A stretch of DNA of 64,000 nt from Bacteriovorax sp. (GCA_014377485.1 JACMPM010000082.1:1-64000); one strand, 5' to 3'; shown: positions 41,591-55,290, counted from the stretch's first letter. The notes: generated from the sequence alone by a model not told the origin. A program made the numbers and translations.

Positions 41591-41838
41591 AACGAACAAT
41601 TCTTAGAATCATTCAGATTCTAGGCACAACGATCGAATATGATGGAACGCACACCAGGTACGTGACTGAGCTTTGAGAGAGGAGTAACGACGAATATGGA
41701 TGATTATAGGAATTGTGGTGAACATATTTCATGGAGGAGACTCTAAAAATGCGACTTGTAACTATACAGTTTTTCGAAATAATTCATATTAAAGGTCACA
41801 ATATGTGACCTTTGAATCATGCTTCTTCATTGTTCTTA
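41591..41838 (+). repeat. Direct repeat element, copy A
   Basis: Matches copy B at 46283-46526 in the same direction. Shared blocks include CTAGGCAC, ACACCA-nn-TACGTGAC, AGTAACGACGA and a nearly identical 80-base core from TTCATGGAGGAG to the hairpin. The core has GGAGGAG (41733-41739), a 19-codon ORF (41749-41808) and the hairpin AAAGGTCACA / TGTGACCTTT (41791-41813). Homology fades on both sides. No transposase is present. It fills the gap between the DUF2252 pseudogene and the coiled-coil operon. Confidence 0.85.
41749..41808 (+). CDS. Putative 19-residue peptide in repeat copy A
   Basis: ATG with a perfect SD (GGAGGAG nine bases upstream). The product MRLVTIQFFEIIHIKGHNM differs from its twin in copy B at three positions. 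The last codons and stop are inside the hairpin, so translation would open or block the stem. All visible differences are amino-acid changing, so conservation at the peptide level is not proven; it may act as a leader. Confidence 0.35.
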   Translation: MRLVTIQFFEIIHIKGHNM

Positions 41839-45260: not shown

Positions 45261-46247
45261 CTATTTATTCAAAATAGCAGATCCAAGAATCATATTTTTA
45301 TTAATGTTAATTGAATCTTTTTGATTACCAGTTAAAATCTGAACAAATGACTGCTCACTTGAAATCTTTCTTCCTTTCATTTCAGTGACTCCAACCTGAA
45401 GTTTCATTCGCTTGTCATAAAAATAAACGACAGCACCATTTTAAATTGATCATTTTTTCCATTGTATCGAAAATCAATATGACTATTTCTTTCAATTATT
45501 TTTAAATCAACAACACTAGTTTGAACATGAGGTATAGTTGTTCGATAATGAAGAACAAAGAGATGAATAAATATCAAAACAACAAAAGGTACACTCGAAA
45601 AAGCAAACTGAGTTTTAAAACTTGTAAAAAATAATTTATTAATTCCCTATATTGAAAGTTATCAATATTTTGTTGTAGAAACCTTAATCCTTTGCGATAT
45701 AAATATGATTGGTAAGTCGTGACAAAAACTTGCCTTTTATAAAACCAGATTTTTGTCTCTGTTCTTAGCAAATAATTGCGCAAGCGAAGTTTTGCCATAA
45801 AATAATTGAAACCAGGTCTATCAATTTTATTCGAATTATTTATTTTAAATGCCTCTATCAAGCTGAAAGTATCATATTGGTGAAAAATAGATTTATCTTT
45901 TTTCCATTAACAAACATAATTTTCAAATACTCTCCAAAGATGAATGAAGATTTCACTTCTATCTTTTGAATATATTCAAATTTATATGATCGATATTTTC
46001 TTGTTCTTCCAATCATAAACTTATCGTCATAGATCAATAATGATTCTTGATTTCTATTGTACGATGCAACCATATAGATTGGAGCGCAAAGACTTAGGAG
46101 TATTATAAAAATTGAAGAAGGGTCTCCACTCGAACGGAACTCTTGATAAGCTACAAAACAAATAGCAACCATCAACATAAACTTCAGTGGCGTAGTTTAA
46201 AATCGTGTACTAAATTTCAAAGGTCGCTTAGCAACTTTTTCTTCCAT
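45261..46247 (-). pseudogene. Decayed membrane-protein gene with PH-like domain: one stop, three frameshifts
   Basis: From ATG 46247 (MEEKVAKRPLKFSTRF) an in-frame TAA interrupts, then TTPLKFMLMVAICFVAYQEF continues: two TM helices and a PH-like LLIYDDKFMIGRTRKYRSYK. One-base losses in short T or A runs near 45890, 45630 and 45447 break the frame. Correcting them joins KINLFFHQYDTFSLIEAF, NYFFTSFKTQFAFSSVPF (third TM) and FKNGAVVYFYDKRMKLQVG, ending SAILNK at TAG 45261. The corrected length is a multiple of three (330 codons with stop). No family name can be given. Confidence 0.75.
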
Positions 46248-46661: not shown

Positions 46662-47724
46662 TTGAAAGCTAATTTAGAAATTAATAATCTCAATGGCACC
46701 AGTTATATTTCTCATGCTGAAGAATACTGGGAGCGATTGTTTCAAGATCTGGTCGAATTTAAAAAGACTCACGGACACTGTTTAGGACCTTTCGATCACA
46801 GAGAAAATATTTTTCTATAGAGTTGGATCGAAGACCAGCGAAAAAACGCTATACACTTCAAGGCGACGCTAAAAAAAGGTTAGATGACATTGGATTTGCA
46901 TGGACGGCCAATGACATCATTTGGGAAAATAATTTTAGACAACTTTTAGAATTTAAAAAAATATACGGTCACTCTAAGATCTCCGATAGCTTTGGATGTC
47001 TCAAATTAAGTAGATGAGTGAATAAACAAAGAAGTAAGAAAAAAATTCTCAGTGCTATTCGAATACAAAAACTCAATGAAATTGGGTTTATTTGGGAGAT
47101 AAATAACTCTCGCTGGAAAAATAACTTTTCAAAACTTAAAGAATTTAAAGAAATTAAAAGACATTGTAATGTTCCTCAAGTGTATAAAGAAGACCATCAA
47201 CTCGGAATTTGGGTTGCAGAACAACGTAATACAATTTATGACGATCGTTTTCTAGAAAGAAGAAAACGCTTAGACGAAATCGGATTTTCGTGGAGTCCCA
47301 TTGACGAAAAATATGAAGAACAATTTAAAAAACTTTTAGAATTTTAAGAAATGTATGGCCATATAAATGTTTTTAAAAATCCTGACTGCGATCCTACATT
47401 AAAAACCTTGTTTAAAGTGCAACGAAGAAAAATAATAACCTCGATTCAAACAAGAGAAAAAGATTAGACGAAATTGGGTTTGAATGGAGTCCTAACTCTA
47501 CTCTCTGGGAAGAAAATTTTAAAAAATTAGTCGAATTTAAACATATTTACTGTCCCAAGAACATTTGTTGCCGATCATTCCTTAGCACTATGGGTGGCCA
47601 GTCAACGAGCGAAAGAAGAAAGTCTTAACAATGAAAGAAAAATAAAACTGAATGAAATTGGGTTTACTTGGTCCGTTCCTAACAAAAAGCTGTTTAGAAA
47701 AGATTCACATCTCAAGCAGACGTA
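46662..47724 (+). pseudogene. Decayed gene of five helicase-associated (HA) domains
   Basis: From a TTG at 46662 (GGTGGAG upstream) the sequence encodes five HA-type repeats, each of the form W-x(3)F-x(2)L-x-EFK...G(H)...W(V/I)x(2)QR...R(L)xEIGFxW. Lesions: stop TAG at 46818 in place of a residue before SWIEDQR; frameshift near 46842; stop TGA at 47015 where a Trp is expected before VNKQR; stop TAA at 47345 where Lys is expected in LLEFKEMYGH; frameshifts near 47445 and 47550. Repeats 3 and 5 are still nearly intact (QLGIWVAEQR, SLALWVASQR). Confidence 0.85.
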
Positions 47725-47923: not shown

Positions 47924-49411
47924 TTAGAATGGATATACAGGATTTGTATCACCAGCACTACTCCTACCACCTTCTACACATGGGTTGGTTACCGTTTTAT
48001 CGTAAATAACTTTGCCGTATTCATCTTCAAATTTTAAATGAGTACTACCTTCGACTTTAACATCAACAAAATAACTAATAAAATCATCCGAATATACTCC
48101 GCCAGCGTTCTCAGAAGACTCTCCATTAATTTTTTTAATTTCTCCATGTCCTTTAACTTTAACCGTAGCGGAATTAATTGTACCAATGGTATAGTAACCG
48201 TTTGAATCGAATCCATGGTTGCAAGCTATTTCACCTCCTGTCATCACTATTCCACAATTGTCTTTTAGCTTACTTGCAATCTCTCGCATATTGTCTTTAA
48301 AATGCTCAACCAGTGAATTAACTATTCCGGTTGAATCTCTAGTTGCCGTGAATGAGGAACTTAGGTAAATATCATCCATTCCATGATATAAAGCATCTCC
48401 TCCTCGATAGGTAAAATATTCAAAAATTGCCGAGACTTTATCCTTAAATGATAAATTTGATACTGCAGATAATATGAGTAATTGACTAGATGTCATAGAA
48501 GTTGCGCGATAGTTTGCGGGAATTGGACGCACTCCTGTCATCTCTTCGGAAGACCCAATAACCAAATCTTTATTATGTCGAATATATTGTGCATGGTCAG
48601 GATAAAAGTTTGGAATATTATTTGGATCATTTACAATAACATCATCAACGATTGTAGCAGTCTCAACCACTAATCTCGGAGACGGTGGTGCTACTTGCAT
48701 ATAGCCAACAAAGGCATCAAATCTTTTAACCTCTCCAGGAGTTGTGAAATTATTCCTGATACTTTTAATCGCTGAATATAATACCTCGTTGCCTTGAGAG
48801 TGAGAAACTACTATAAGCTTATTCTTACCATTATTATACGCTTCACGGATTTGAATTTTTAACTGCTCTACAACTGCAACATCTGAGGCTGCACTTGCAA
48901 GCATGTCTGCAAAACGAATATTATATATTGCTAGATCTTTGTATAAATCTGATTGAGAATATGCATCTTGATCGCTAATAAATTTTCCATCTTTATCATA
49001 AGAGTTACTCTTTATTATTTGCTTTAGTGCTTCATCGATTTTATCCTTCCAAAGAAAATCCGTACTTAAAATTAGGTTGTTTGAAGCCTGCTTCCTCCAA
49101 TAATCAATTCTTTTCTTGCCTTGGTGATTAGCTGCTAATTGGGCCTTTAGCTCTTCTATGTCATTTATAAGTTGGAGGGATTGGTTATGAACCAAATACA
49201 CAGGATTTAATTTTTTTTTATCCAATTCGCCTTTAATCGGAGTTAGTGCATCTGAAACTTTTTTTGCCGAATCTACTGCTGCTTGTCTAACTGGAACATT
49301 GACTCCGTTGATATATATGATATTTAAACCATTTGCTGAGCAACTAAGATTGTTCGCAAGTGCTGTTGTTGAGACGACGAAATTTAAGAAAATAAGGATT
49401 AATTTTTTCAT
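47924..49411 (-). CDS. Secreted lipase-like alpha/beta hydrolase
   Basis: 495 residues from the ATG at 49411 (GGGAGT upstream), overlapping the previous stop by 4 bp. Signal peptide to about ALANN. IIYINGVNVP resembles an oxyanion loop; KLIVVSHSQGNEVLYSA is the nucleophile elbow with Ser in SHSQGN. A later ECF-like C-terminal region (residues about 400-490) is beta-rich with four cysteines. Probably hydrolyses ester bonds outside the cell. Operon partner of the small Ca-binding-like lipoprotein. Confidence 0.72.
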   Translation of the reverse strand: MKKLILIFLNFVVSTTALANNLSCSANGLNIIYINGVNVPVRQAAVDSAKKVSDALTPIKGELDKKKLNPVYLVHNQSLQLINDIEELKAQLAANHQGKKRIDYWRKQASNNLILSTDFLWKDKIDEALKQIIKSNSYDKDGKFISDQDAYSQSDLYKDLAIYNIRFADMLASAASDVAVVEQLKIQIREAYNNGKNKLIVVSHSQGNEVLYSAIKSIRNNFTTPGEVKRFDAFVGYMQVAPPSPRLVVETATIVDDVIVNDPNNIPNFYPDHAQYIRHNKDLVIGSSEEMTGVRPIPANYRATSMTSSQLLILSAVSNLSFKDKVSAIFEYFTYRGGDALYHGMDDIYLSSSFTATRDSTGIVNSLVEHFKDNMREIASKLKDNCGIVMTGGEIACNHGFDSNGYYTIGTINSATVKVKGHGEIKKINGESSENAGGVYSDDFISYFVDVKVEGSTHLKFEDEYGKVIYDKTVTNPCVEGGRSSAGDTNPVYPF

Positions 49412-50013
49412 TCTGAGTACTCCCAAAATTTACGATAAGACTTAATAACATTTTCTAGTCCTTGAATCGTAAAATTACAGTTTTCGTGAAATTCGATGGA
49501 TTTAGCATGAGCTATGTATGAAGAATGATCATAAAAACCAAGACAGCTTCGTCTTGCGGTGTTGGAAATTGTTAGCAATCCAATTTTCTTTTCTGCATAA
49601 CCTTTTTTTCGAATTGGGTCACTTAAGGCATTAAGGCATCCATGAGCGCTCATATTGTTAGACACAACTCTTGCTGCTTCATCTTTAAGCTCATTTTTAC
49701 AAACTCTCAATTCATCCTGCTCGGCCCTAGCATACTGTCTCATGGCCATTCGCTCATTATAATCAAACGCTGTTCGATTAATCCAAATATCAACATCATC
49801 GCGAATCCCATTTTCATTAGAATCAATCCCTAAGATCGTTTTATCATTTTCATCACTATTCGGAATCGGTGGCTCTACTTCGCCATCAAAGATATGATTG
49901 TGATTTTGATCTTGTTTTTTTATCTCAAAAACAACCTTAATCGCCTTGTTATATTCTGAAGTGCATCCAGAAACAATTAATAATATGATTGCTAAACTCA
50001 ATGTCTTATTCAC
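49408..50013 (-). CDS. Lipoprotein with a DxNxNGIRDDV calcium-binding-like domain
   Basis: 201 residues; lipobox VSGC. The sequence LGIDSNENGIRDDVDIWINR is an acidic loop like thrombospondin-type or EF-hand calcium sites and starts a helical domain of about 140 residues with four cysteines. The giant PKD protein next door ends with the same arrangement (GVDLDDDGIRDDVQRWIN). This domain style occurs in uncharacterised lipoproteins of several proteobacteria. It is coupled by 4 bp to the lipase-like gene and lies 102 bp after the PKD gene. Confidence 0.8.
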   Translation of the reverse strand: MNKTLSLAIILLIVSGCTSEYNKAIKVVFEIKKQDQNHNHIFDGEVEPPIPNSDENDKTILGIDSNENGIRDDVDIWINRTAFDYNERMAMRQYARAEQDELRVCKNELKDEAARVVSNNMSAHGCLNALSDPIRKKGYAEKKIGLLTISNTARRSCLGFYDHSSYIAHAKSIEFHENCNFTIQGLENVIKSYRKFWEYSE

Positions 50014-50115
50014 ACTTCTCTCCGGTTTCTAGAGCATATATAAAAACTAACTTACATTTATCTTTCTAATATTTATTATTTCAAGCTTCTCAATAATTTT
50101 CCATAAACTTTATAC

Positions 50116-53100
50116 TTAGTGATCCTCACAAGATAATAACCTTGTTGCTTCATCGCCTGAAGGCAACATGCTAGAATATCCAACTAAATTACCTTGTACC
50201 ATTGACCAAGATTTGCTTCTAATTTCAGTTGACGTATAAAGATATTGAAACATTCCTTGATAATATTTTACTAATTCATCATTGTTGACTTGACCAAGAA
50301 AGCATGTCGAAACTTTTTCTTTATTAATCTCTAAGTTTCTTACTTGTATTGAGTCACTGCTATTAACAACCTGTAACTGATAAATCTTTGCTAATTGTCG
50401 AAGCAAATTTTTTACAACTAAATTATCCTTAACTTCAAAATTTATCCATCGTTGTACATCATCACGGATACCATCATCATCAAGATCGACTCCTGCAATA
50501 GTGTCCGAATTAGCATCACCAGGATCTGGAACTTCCGGATCATAAACATATATTGATTTCGTTATCGAATCCACATCACCCTGATCATCGCTCACAGTTA
50601 ATACTACATCATAATTTCCAGAAGTTTGAAATGTATGAAACACTTCCCCAATAGCTATATTTTCTTCAGTTCCATCCCCAAAATTCCATTTGAAGTTTAT
50701 TACCTTTCGTCCTTGTTTAAATGAATCCGACGAATCCAGTTTTAGTTTGTATCCAATATCTGCAAAACTCGTAAAACTTGCTTTTGGTGGAAGATGAGCA
50801 CCTTCGACAACGATAATTTTTTCAAGATATGCGCTTGAAAGGTCTGCTGCATAAAGAGTCAAATTAATTTTATGTTCACCAGAGTTCAGAAATACATGTT
50901 CAAAACTCTCGCCTTCATAAACATTTCGATCATCAACATAGTATCTCATAGCCACAATTTCTTTTGTCTCATTATCATTCTTTAAATAATTACAAGAAAT
51001 ATGAAATGGAGATGTTTCCAAGCAAGTGAAACTTACCTCTACTTTATCCACATGAACAAAAGTGTTCGCAACAGTCACATTTCCAAAATTATCCCTCGCT
51101 GAAAATGTAATATTTTTATCCCCGCCTGAAGTAAAATTATAAATTGTATCTTGCCCATTAAAAGTTTTGCCTTCGATAGTCCACTTCGCCTCTATAATTT
51201 GCCCATCAATATCAGTTGCATTAGAGCTACATTGGTAAGTTGAACCATTAGTAATATTGCAAATAATGTTCACACTGGGTGCCATATCTTCTTTTACTGT
51301 AAAAGATAAATCTTTTATAGTCACAAGCCCATAAGCATCAGTTAATTTTTGCGTAATAGTTTTAACACCAGCCACAGAAAAATCTAAGTTAAAAATTAAA
51401 TTATCATTCACAGTTATTGCCTGCCCATCTACAAACCATTCAGTTGCCATCATCATAGACTCAGGATCATACGAAAAGTTCTGACATAATAATTTCAAAG
51501 GACCATTATCAAGACATATGAAATTTGCAACTGGAGCAAGATTCTCAATCGGAGCGATAGCTTGCGAAGCAATACTAGTTGCACCGTAGGAATCCTTAAC
51601 CTGTAAGGTAATATTACGTGAGATTGAATTTATATAAGTATGGTCAATAGATGGGATTAATGTTGTTTCAATTACTCCATCTCCTAAATCCCACTTAAAT
51701 ACAATAATGCTATCATTCAAATCAGTGTCATATGAATTAGAATTACAATGAACAGAATTAACAGCGAAACTGTAACAGTTTATGCTGGCAATAGGTGCAG
51801 AGTTTTCCTTAACATCAAAGTTTTTTGTGATTGAACTCAATCCACCAACATTATCAACTACAGTCAATTTTATAGAATGGCTGCCACCATTTAAAAATAC
51901 ATGCTCAAAAAAGAAATCCTTGTCATAGTTAGCAGTGAAACCATCATCAAATTCATAATGAGCACTCGTAATAAATCCATCGGGGTCATACGATGGCCCT
52001 GCATTACAAGAAATTGTCAGAGGTCTATTCGTAATACAATTCAACTGAGCCACCGGTAAAACATTCTGCGGCACAACCACTTGAACAGAAGTTGTAGCAA
52101 CCGAACTTAATCCCGTATTATCTTTTACAGTAACCGAAACATTATACGTCCCCGCTGCCAGATAAGCATGACTAGAAATCCCAGTCGCATTCGTCTCAGT
52201 AAATCCATCTTGATAATTAAACGTATAAGTTAAAGGCCCACCTTTAGGGTCATAACTCGCCAATGCATTACATCCCGCCAATAAATTATTTGTATAGCAA
52301 AAGATATTTGCAACCGGATTTGGAAGAATAATATTTTTTGTGATCGTTGCAGTCCCCACTTCTCCTCTCGACGTATAAACATAGAGTCCAATTGTCTGAA
52401 CGCCCGAAGTAAAATATTTTTTACTTACTCTATAAAGACCTTGTCCAGGAGTCACTGGATTGGTGAGCGTGCTACTTGTGCCGTCTCCCCAAAGAACTCT
52501 CACCGAAGTAATCTCATTAAATTTATCAAGTGCGGTGATACTGCAATTTTGTGTTTGAGTCGTCGCAGTCCCACAATCAATATTGGCCACGAGATCGCTG
52601 CCGTCTTGATAAATGGTCACGTGTTGAGTTTGGGAATTTCTAAGACCTGCTGAATCGGTCACGGTAAGTGTGACAAGATAATCTCCAGGTTCGTAGAAGT
52701 GAGCTACTTTGTCTCCGGTACCAGTTGAGCCGTCGCCAAAATCCCAGAGGTAAGAAATAATATTTCCATTGGGAGTTCCTGATCTATCGTTGTAGAAACT
52801 TACGTTTCTTGCCCATGAATTGATCTGATAGCCAAAGGCCGCTACGGGATTCAAAATAGGAATGTCTTGATCGCTCACCGTGACTATTTTACTCAGAGAG
52901 CTTACTGTTCCCTGATTTGTGGTCACCGTAAGTGTTGCTGTGTAAGATCCAGCGTTCAGGTAAGTGTGAGTGGCAAAGTTAGTTGCAGTGTTAGCAAATG
53001 TTCCGTCACCGTAATCAATTCGAAAATTTCTTATCCCAAATAGAATGTCGGGATTGAAAGTTCTGTTAAAATTAAATAAAGCTGTTCTCACACTTGATTG

Positions 53101-55290
53101 AGTGACTTTAAAATCGACTACTGCTTTTAGAGTGGCTGGATCTTGAAGTAAGTTAACTTGGTAAGTAGCACTTGCTGATTGCTCCCTTACATCGAACACC
53201 GTAAGAGTGATTGTGTGAATGCCGTAATTTTTTAAATCGACAAGTGTTCTTGTGCCCGGATAAAATTCGGTAATGGGAATTGTTTGACTACCATCGATAG
53301 TATAAAAAGCATGGTCGAGGTCAAATTGTGTTTTAGTGAGATTCGAAATGAGAACAATTTGCGTGCTGCTATCTTCAAAATATTTAAATGAAAGTCCTGG
53401 AGATTCTCGTAGTGGTTCAAGTGATGTGATGCTTGTTGATTTAGTTGTCACTGCACCGAGATTGTCAGTGACTTTTAGAGTGGCACTAAAAGATCCTACG
53501 CTACTAAAAGTGTGCGAGACATTGGCGCCGCTGGCAGTTGTTCCATCTGAAAAAGTCCATTCAATGCTGGCGATACTTCCGTCAACATCAACTGCGCTTC
53601 GAGCTTCGAAATTTATTGCAAGCGGAGCTACTCCAGAAATCGTGCTCGCATACAACTCTGCTTTTGGTGGTTGATTTTTTATCGGCTGCAATGTTGAAGA
53701 AGTGCTCGTGCTCGCTCCTAAATCGTCTGTGACTTGTAAATTTATGACGTGTGCAAGGTCATCTAAGAAGGCGTGCTCGAAACTTACTCCACTAAAACTT
53801 GATCCATCATCGAGAGTCCAAGTCGTGCTTGCAATGACTCCGTCACTGTCAGAGCTCGAGCTCGTGCAACGAATAGTTCGCACAGCTGTGTTGGTACAAG
53901 AAAAATTAGTAATGGGAGTAATGTTTTTTAAAACACTAAATGTATTTGTTAAAGTTGAAACACCGCCATCATTATCAATCACCGTAAGAACTACGGAGTG
54001 ATCTCCACTTTGAGAGAATTGATGAGTAACTGGACTGCCATCGGCTTTGGTATTACTTGCTCCATCATCAAATGAATATTGATAAGAAACGATAGACCCG
54101 TCAGAATCAACAGATCCAAGCCCATTACATTCAAGAGTATTTGGTCTAGAAGAATTGCAATTTAATTTTATAGTGGGAAGCTGATTGGGGGGCTTTACTG
54201 CTTGAACCTGAGTGGTCGCAAATGCTACCGCTCCCAAGCTGTCTGTGACTGTAAGCTTAACTGTATGGAGACCTGCCAATGAATAAGCATGAGTCGAGAG
54301 TCCATTTGTATTTTTTTCAACAAAACCATCACCGTACTCAAACATGAAAGCGATCGCTTGACCTTCGGGATCATAGGAAGACAAAGCATTGCAAGCAGCT
54401 AGCAGGGAGTTTGTCGAACAAGATAAGGAAGCAACTGGTGGAAGGTTATCTTTTACTGCAATCGACTTAGTGACAGTGTTTAATCCACCAAAAGAGTCAG
54501 TAACCGTTAATGAAATATTTTGATTTCCACCTTTGGAATAAATGTGCGTGACTGAAGAAGAACTTGCAAGCGAGCTTTGATCTCCAAAATTCCACGAATA
54601 ACTTTGAATTGAATCGTTCGGTGCATCTGGATCAGTTGAAGTTGACGAGCATGCTACGTTAAACATTGTTGAAGAGGTACAAGTGAAATTAGCAATGGGA
54701 TTTGTATTTTCTTTAACAACAAAGCTCTGAGTTACTTTTGATGATCCGCCACTATTATCAGTTGCGGTCACTGTAACGACGTGGGTGCCTCCAGCAAGGA
54801 ATGCATGAGCGATTAAAGTGTCGTCATTTTTAAAATCACTTTTTCCATCGTCCCAAGCATATTGATAAGAAGTAATAGATCCATCGTAATCTTTTGATCC
54901 CGAGGCATTACATTCAAGAGATCTTGGTTTTGATGAAGAACAATTTAAAACGACCTTCGGCAGTTGATTCAAAACATTAATCGTGACAGAACCTGCATCT
55001 TTGTAATTTGGATTTTTTTCACTTGCATTGACTTGATAGCTAAGTGCCGCCGTGAAAGTGCCGGGAGTTTTATATTGATAAGTCACAGTTGGATTAGTAG
55101 TCGTTAAATTGTTTCCGTCCCCAAATACCCAGATAAATTTTTTTGCGGATTTGATACTGCTAGCATTGAATGTAATTGTGAGAGGAGATATGCCTTCAGT
55201 TTTATCGACAGAAAATTCTCGAGTGCCTGCAAAAGAAGCTTGAGTGAAAGATAAAATGAAGCCCAAAACAATTGCTTGAATCTGAAACAT
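50116..55290 (-). CDS. Giant secreted PKD-repeat protein with C-terminal calcium-binding-like domain
   Basis: 1724 residues, the largest gene in the window. A signal peptide ends near QASFAG. About 18 PKD-type beta domains follow, each with a variant of Y-x-W-x-F-G-D-G (e.g. WNFGDGTEEN, YLWDFGDGSTG) and an H-x-F/Y...V-x-L-T-V edge; most carry a Cys pair that would staple the first strands. The last 140 residues begin GVDLDDDGIRDDVQRWIN, shared with the next lipoprotein. PKD arrays bind proteins or polysaccharides, so a surface or prey-binding fibre is likely. Complete, no lesion seen. Confidence 0.9.
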   Translation of the reverse strand: MFQIQAIVLGFILSFTQASFAGTREFSVDKTEGISPLTITFNASSIKSAKKFIWVFGDGNNLTTTNPTVTYQYKTPGTFTAALSYQVNASEKNPNYKDAGSVTINVLNQLPKVVLNCSSSKPRSLECNASGSKDYDGSITSYQYAWDDGKSDFKNDDTLIAHAFLAGGTHVVTVTATDNSGGSSKVTQSFVVKENTNPIANFTCTSSTMFNVACSSTSTDPDAPNDSIQSYSWNFGDQSSLASSSSVTHIYSKGGNQNISLTVTDSFGGLNTVTKSIAVKDNLPPVASLSCSTNSLLAACNALSSYDPEGQAIAFMFEYGDGFVEKNTNGLSTHAYSLAGLHTVKLTVTDSLGAVAFATTQVQAVKPPNQLPTIKLNCNSSRPNTLECNGLGSVDSDGSIVSYQYSFDDGASNTKADGSPVTHQFSQSGDHSVVLTVIDNDGGVSTLTNTFSVLKNITPITNFSCTNTAVRTIRCTSSSSDSDGVIASTTWTLDDGSSFSGVSFEHAFLDDLAHVINLQVTDDLGASTSTSSTLQPIKNQPPKAELYASTISGVAPLAINFEARSAVDVDGSIASIEWTFSDGTTASGANVSHTFSSVGSFSATLKVTDNLGAVTTKSTSITSLEPLRESPGLSFKYFEDSSTQIVLISNLTKTQFDLDHAFYTIDGSQTIPITEFYPGTRTLVDLKNYGIHTITLTVFDVREQSASATYQVNLLQDPATLKAVVDFKVTQSSVRTALFNFNRTFNPDILFGIRNFRIDYGDGTFANTATNFATHTYLNAGSYTATLTVTTNQGTVSSLSKIVTVSDQDIPILNPVAAFGYQINSWARNVSFYNDRSGTPNGNIISYLWDFGDGSTGTGDKVAHFYEPGDYLVTLTVTDSAGLRNSQTQHVTIYQDGSDLVANIDCGTATTQTQNCSITALDKFNEITSVRVLWGDGTSSTLTNPVTPGQGLYRVSKKYFTSGVQTIGLYVYTSRGEVGTATITKNIILPNPVANIFCYTNNLLAGCNALASYDPKGGPLTYTFNYQDGFTETNATGISSHAYLAAGTYNVSVTVKDNTGLSSVATTSVQVVVPQNVLPVAQLNCITNRPLTISCNAGPSYDPDGFITSAHYEFDDGFTANYDKDFFFEHVFLNGGSHSIKLTVVDNVGGLSSITKNFDVKENSAPIASINCYSFAVNSVHCNSNSYDTDLNDSIIVFKWDLGDGVIETTLIPSIDHTYINSISRNITLQVKDSYGATSIASQAIAPIENLAPVANFICLDNGPLKLLCQNFSYDPESMMMATEWFVDGQAITVNDNLIFNLDFSVAGVKTITQKLTDAYGLVTIKDLSFTVKEDMAPSVNIICNITNGSTYQCSSNATDIDGQIIEAKWTIEGKTFNGQDTIYNFTSGGDKNITFSARDNFGNVTVANTFVHVDKVEVSFTCLETSPFHISCNYLKNDNETKEIVAMRYYVDDRNVYEGESFEHVFLNSGEHKINLTLYAADLSSAYLEKIIVVEGAHLPPKASFTSFADIGYKLKLDSSDSFKQGRKVINFKWNFGDGTEENIAIGEVFHTFQTSGNYDVVLTVSDDQGDVDSITKSIYVYDPEVPDPGDANSDTIAGVDLDDDGIRDDVQRWINFEVKDNLVVKNLLRQLAKIYQLQVVNSSDSIQVRNLEINKEKVSTCFLGQVNNDELVKYYQGMFQYLYTSTEIRSKSWSMVQGNLVGYSSMLPSGDEATRLLSCEDH

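Follow-up and report, generated by a model that had tools for sequence, protein, structure and literature searches.

The window analysed here is a 64,000-nucleotide stretch of Bacteriovorax sp. DNA (GCA_014377485.1 JACMPM010000082.1:1-64000) that carries on its minus strand a three-gene cassette, two of whose products share an end domain that we call X. The gene for a giant secreted PKD-repeat protein of 1724 residues (50116..55290), comprising a signal peptide, a long PKD stalk and a C-terminal X, is followed by a lipoprotein gene with a GTG start (49408..50013) and then by the gene for H, a predicted secreted alpha/beta-hydrolase of 495 residues with a cutinase-like core (47924..49411; the best start is the ATG at 49411). 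All three open reading frames (ORFs) lie where an earlier note on this DNA had placed them, and the acidic motif reported there is correct, as are its statements that about 130 residues follow the motif and that the 201-residue lipoprotein is mostly the same end domain. The note also described the lipoprotein and hydrolase genes as coupled by 4 bp; the coupling holds, its exact form being an overlap in ATGA (49408..49411), where the TGA stop of the one gene meets the ATG start of the other, and not a gap. The 102-bp spacer between the giant and lipoprotein genes has no terminator-like site.

The giant contains at least 15 PKD stretches (PF18911 E 1e-158), with PF18911 and PF00801 scoring 516 and 377 bits over 15 and 14 stretches, above their cut-offs; only PKD-type families in Pfam exceed the cut-off in this protein (P0001), TpsA or Rhs carrier domains were not found in it, and no tandem repeats were found at the DNA level. 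The 201-residue protein has a predicted signal peptide and, by inspection of the translation, a lipobox cysteine (VSGC, residues 14-17; 49963..49974), as expected of a bacterial lipoprotein.

In the giant, X and its lead-in occupy residues 1571-1724 (50119..50580), with the acidic loop GVDLDDDGIRDDVQ at 50452..50493; the lipoprotein has the corresponding loop GIDSNENGIRDDVD at 49789..49830. The likeness of the two domains is not due to chance, since a direct BLASTP comparison of giant tail and lipoprotein gives E 9e-10 over 64 columns and the two families match as profiles, hhalign of 16 tails against 20 lipoproteins returning a probability of 99.7% and E 1e-25 over 142 columns, which is the whole end domain and extends well beyond the acidic motif. 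Shared features include GIDSDxDGIRDD[VI]xxWIN and, in the second half, which is also homologous, two cysteines and NTxxR; X is one homologous domain, not merely one motif. AlphaFold2, run on the giant tail with a 57-member alignment, yields an all-helical model with a mean predicted local distance difference test score (pLDDT) of 91.2. The earlier note had proposed comparing models of the two end domains, with different folds after the acidic loop as the counter-case; with a model of the tail only, the comparison was made between profiles, and their homology, which spans the entire domain, speaks against such a difference.

No family for X was found above cut-off in Pfam, NCBIfam or PADLOC, and sequence searches of the PDB gave no matches. 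No PDB fold matches X convincingly, which is no proof of a new fold: the best Foldseek hit has E 4.6 and the best VIA hit, to a designed bundle, Z 7.7, a Z score that is usual for helical bundles. A scan of the genome contigs with the single tail sequence gave nothing; an alignment query was required. The loop itself is of the D-x-D-x-D-G-x-x-D, EF-hand/TSP3-like type, with the expected ligands at positions 1, 3, 5, 9 and 12: across the 57 members, D1, D/N3, D/N/S5, D9 and Q/E/D12 are conserved in 57/57 and G6 in 56/57. Because the ligand positions are conserved, X likely binds calcium. Dockerin/cohesin modules and TSP3 repeats share the D-x-D-x-D-G loop, and enzyme docking is a possible role, but X has a single loop followed by a helical bundle, and a search of eight X domains against Pfam gave no dockerin match at E up to 10 and TSP3_bac only at E 0.45.

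H carries, by inspection, a Sec-type signal peptide, and its candidate triad consists of Ser205 in HSQGN, Asp282 and the His in YHGMDDIYL. In the alignment of H proteins, H204 is present in 90% or more, G207 and D282 are invariant, and the His of the HG..xIYL region is found in most rows. The structure model is of moderate confidence (pLDDT 66.6); its core matches fungal cutinases, aligning with cutinase 5x88 in VIA-align at Z 12.6 and a root-mean-square deviation of 3.4 over 164 residues, while Foldseek alone found no significant match among structures. Pfam matches to H are below cut-offs only, and NCBIfam and PADLOC returned none above cut-off. On the modelled fold and the Ser-Asp-His arrangement we class H as a cutinase-like alpha/beta-hydrolase, which would be expected to hydrolyse lipids or esters. 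The nucleophile serine is lost in several H proteins whose cassettes are otherwise intact, the motif reading HGEGN in L103, L104 and L106 and YGLGN in L115. One genome has two cassettes, L115 and L121, in which the C-terminal halves of H are near-identical and the N-terminal hydrolase domains differ, one being without the serine.

Whole-genome searches of 192 relatives, together with a scan of genomes that carry names, put the window within the Bacteriovoracaceae neighbourhood and show that the order of PKD protein with X, X-lipoprotein and H recurs in many relatives. Among the 192, X lies directly upstream of H on the same strand, mostly within 170 bp, in 30 of the 33 full-length H genes; the other three are contig-end artefacts, two having an X fragment cut by the contig end and one starting 3 bp from it. 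X thus accompanied H wherever flanking sequence sufficed, and the two form an obligate gene pair as far as these data reach. Other cassettes consist of two small X proteins and one H, with no PKD giant; beside such small X proteins, PKD repeats can occur inside H itself (five in L090, one in L092). Transposase or transposase-like ORFs adjoin cassettes or fused X-H genes at L085, L070, L073, L088, L140 and L142, and the giant is truncated in several.

The pair extends well beyond Bacteriovoracia, and in several bacterial phyla X is the regular neighbour, at times the fusion partner, of H. Plasmids of Acinetobacter, Vibrio, Photobacterium, Sulfurovum and others encode X as a small secreted protein or lipoprotein, and in six beta/gammaproteobacterial genera plasmids carry an X-lipoprotein gene followed by H, the two overlapping by 8-11 bp (Comamonas, Cupriavidus, Aeromonas, Methylibium, Vibrio pectenicida and Photobacterium damselae). 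On three Deinococcus plasmids X and then H are joined in one protein (X, E 6e-14 to 2e-12; H, E 2e-26 to 6e-21), matches that are independent because the test profiles came from Bacteriovoracia only, and Candidatus Manganitrophus has an FnIII-X-H reading with a frame break. Fusion, translational coupling and obligate neighbourhood together make a strong case for X and H functioning as a unit, as distinct from direct proof of binding. The phyletic spread suggests that the X-H pair is older than the stalk. Three features of the plasmid genes may be recorded: the Photobacterium damselae and Vibrio pectenicida X proteins (L137/L136) carry the apparently mistaken annotation 'chromosome partitioning protein ParA'; Photobacterium damselae has two X genes in tandem before H; and a Sulfurovum plasmid (L129, 4971-6289) has two overlapping tandem X genes but lacks H, and the second X protein has at its N-terminus an additional, putatively Ig-like domain.

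These pairs and fusions, which occur where no PKD giant adjoins, bear directly on the interpretation offered by the earlier note, spelled out here as a model in which the X domains of giant and lipoprotein pair with each other in a calcium-dependent way, the lipoprotein anchors the fibre, and the hydrolase is cargo or incidental. That giant and lipoprotein both have X with a conserved acidic loop fits this model, as does the co-divergence of tail-X and lipoprotein-X. In distance correlations, all of which shared descent inflates, tail and lipoprotein give r 0.71, but the tail follows H more closely (0.81-0.88); lipoprotein and H give 0.74, and the last PKD repeat and the lipoprotein only 0.36. 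The model accounts for the common domain, but not for why X follows H where the giant is absent, and we regard it as improbable. The view of fibre-like PKD protein, lipoprotein and hydrolase as one conserved unit is supported, whereas a role of X mainly in assembling fibre and anchor is not supported as stated, the constant partner of X being the enzyme. The observation made in the note is confirmed and its interpretation supported in part, and what was found here goes further than the note did.

The nearest working analogue, to which X does not belong by sequence, is the lipase-specific foldase (Lif/LipH) of the lipase LipA: Lif sits in the inner membrane, has a folding domain of 11 helices and acts as a membrane-bound helical steric chaperone of LipA (PMC7046727), and X likewise is a membrane-anchored helical partner encoded beside a secreted alpha/beta-hydrolase. 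X differs in being a lipoprotein or a stalk tail and in lying upstream of, or fused to, H, and neither the lipoprotein (P0002) nor the eight X domains match the Lif family in Pfam. The string RTAFDY in P0002 would fit the beginning of Lif's motif, RXXFDY(F/C)L(S/T)A, but is probably a chance resemblance, relatives carrying GIDY, ALDY or GKTY at this place. X could be purely a steric foldase of H, as Lif is of LipA, with the X of the giant a decayed or repurposed copy that has no role in display. The all-helical, membrane-anchored X preceding a secreted hydrolase in translational coupling agrees with this, and the X-H fusions resemble a pro-domain arrangement; however, the X of the giant retains all conserved positions and tracks the divergence of H, and so appears to be under selection with it. 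We consider the restriction to a foldase very unlikely.

The history of the two X lines adds a second layer to the pairing. When 54 X domains are placed in a tree, those of tails and those of lipoproteins group apart for the most part and branch in parallel, the deep branches being long and partly open; tail-X and lipoprotein-X appear to be old, separate lines that co-occur. Against the giant of G012 the window giant has ~85% identity over residues 421-1080 and 24-29% in the tail; against that of G004 the stalk has ~50% and the tail 60-72%. The lipoproteins (32% to G012, 57% to G004) and H (29%, 52%) track the identity of the tail; tail, lipoprotein and H recombine together, as one block, relative to the stalk. 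G055 has two stalk-less orphan modules, each a PKD+X tail with an X-lipoprotein of its own behind it; their DNA is 90-100% identical from the PKD part until shortly after the acidic motif, where identity drops to 59-77%. The genome of the window itself has, on contig C57, a decayed second cassette with an orphan tail remnant, an intact X-lipoprotein and a truncated H, and in G005 an orphan tail remnant, an intact lipoprotein and an intact H lie beside transposase-like ORFs.

A common N-terminal part, a divergent C-terminal module and orphans with their cognate gene, as seen in G055, in the window/G012/G004 comparison and on C57, are the marks of a polymorphic system, and the block exchange seen here matches the behaviour of contact-dependent inhibition (CDI)/Rhs C-terminal modules (PMC3150448). 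The likeness covers a giant repeat protein, a variable C-terminal module with a cognate downstream gene, orphan modules and mosaic exchange. H, with or without the giant tail, might accordingly be an antibacterial enzyme, the X-lipoprotein its periplasmic immunity protein and the giant their carrier, with modules exchanged like CdiA-CT/CdiI or Rhs. This would account for the orphan lipoproteins. The stalk-less modules of G055 and the remnants on C57 and in G005 look like CDI/Rhs orphan modules (PMC3150448), and among the 192 relatives X without H is common and H without X was not found. In Tle3/Tli3 of the type VI secretion system (T6SS), moreover, the effector is an alpha/beta-hydrolase and its immunity protein a lipoprotein of the outer membrane (PMC9860674). 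Yet H has a Sec-type signal peptide, unlike the cytosolic T6SS effectors, which lack one; X is helical, whereas Tli3 has beta structure, with a beta6-beta7 loop that it inserts (PMC9860674); and the Deinococcus X-H fusion would put enzyme and inhibitor into one protein. The cassette also departs from CDI/Rhs in having no known toxin activity and no TpsA or Rhs domain, in its third part, a secreted enzyme, and in a downstream lipoprotein homologous to the carrier tail, which is unexpected for toxin/immunity pairs; the catalytic serine, too, is lost in some H. We judge this effector-immunity reading unlikely.

Because of the upstream pairing, the plasmid pairs and the Deinococcus and Manganitrophus fusions, X is best read as the dedicated partner of H. 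The fuller proposal, to which we give about an even chance, is that X is a dedicated foldase or tether of H, that the second X, on the giant, displays H on the stalk, and that the block is exchanged between strains. The helical X with its one calcium-type loop would bind H and keep it folded or in place outside the cytoplasm, direct binding being suggested by the fusions and the coupling; the X-lipoprotein would hold or mature H at the membrane; and the C-terminal X of the giant would provide a second site, so that H, or a lipoprotein-H complex, may be presented at the cell surface by a long stalk. The matched block would consist of tail, lipoprotein and enzyme, and would pass from strain to strain separately from most of the stalk. 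Also in favour of this proposal are the recurrence of two X genes per H even without a PKD giant, with PKD repeats inside some of those H proteins, the parallel branching and correlated distances of the X lines and H, and the crossed identities of stalk and tail against G012 and G004.

Several observations weigh against it. A full-length H is missing beside about 39 of the 85 X hits, and X stands alone, with no H, on Acinetobacter and Vibrio penaeicida plasmids; since X alone is this common, it may have other partners or roles. No export route was identified for the giant, and shared descent lies behind part of the distance correlations. The serine-less H proteins mean that enzyme activity is not always what is kept, and argue that what is kept can be the complex, not catalysis alone.

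Around these cassettes some further genes deserve mention. The island on C57 (L006, 2834-8773) also holds a 5' piece of a further X-lipoprotein gene, genes for two paralogous secreted proteins of 321 and 330 residues, and four for paralogous small membrane-type proteins (ME[RK][VIL]K...), which recur downstream of H in L106 and L073. A small ORF in the window (45858-46178), whose position recalls these membrane proteins, was considered as a fourth cassette member and dropped, as it has no similarity to them. A plus-strand ORF with a short helicase-associated (HA) domain (47018-47347) adjoins the cassette, in ~3 kb of AT-rich, gene-poor DNA, and downstream of the cassette 46314-46516 matches 41611-41827, ~4.7 kb further, with 76.7% identity over 219 columns.

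Mosaic surface fibres are also known from a predatory relative, in the mosaic adhesive trimer (MAT) fibres of Bdellovibrio (PMC10769870); those are trimeric fibres with adhesive tips, whereas the giant belongs to the PKD proteins and has a tail linked to an enzyme. A literature search found no paper on the cassette. A wider picture, which we hold as possible but doubtful, is of a mobile two-gene X-H unit present in several phyla that Bacteriovoracia have mounted on exchangeable giant PKD stalks, matched sets being swapped for handling other bacteria. Our verdict is that the PKD stalks are a Bacteriovoracia elaboration of a widespread pair of two unannotated families, and the pairing offers a first functional lead for both, which in many bacteria, on conjugative plasmids among other places, are annotated as hypothetical or, apparently in error, as ParA. 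Should X prove to be a foldase or tether, nature would have solved the problem that Lif solves a second time and by unrelated means; and in Bacteriovoracia the pair has apparently become part of exchangeable surface stalks, which offers a testable view of how these bacteria present enzymes to the surroundings.

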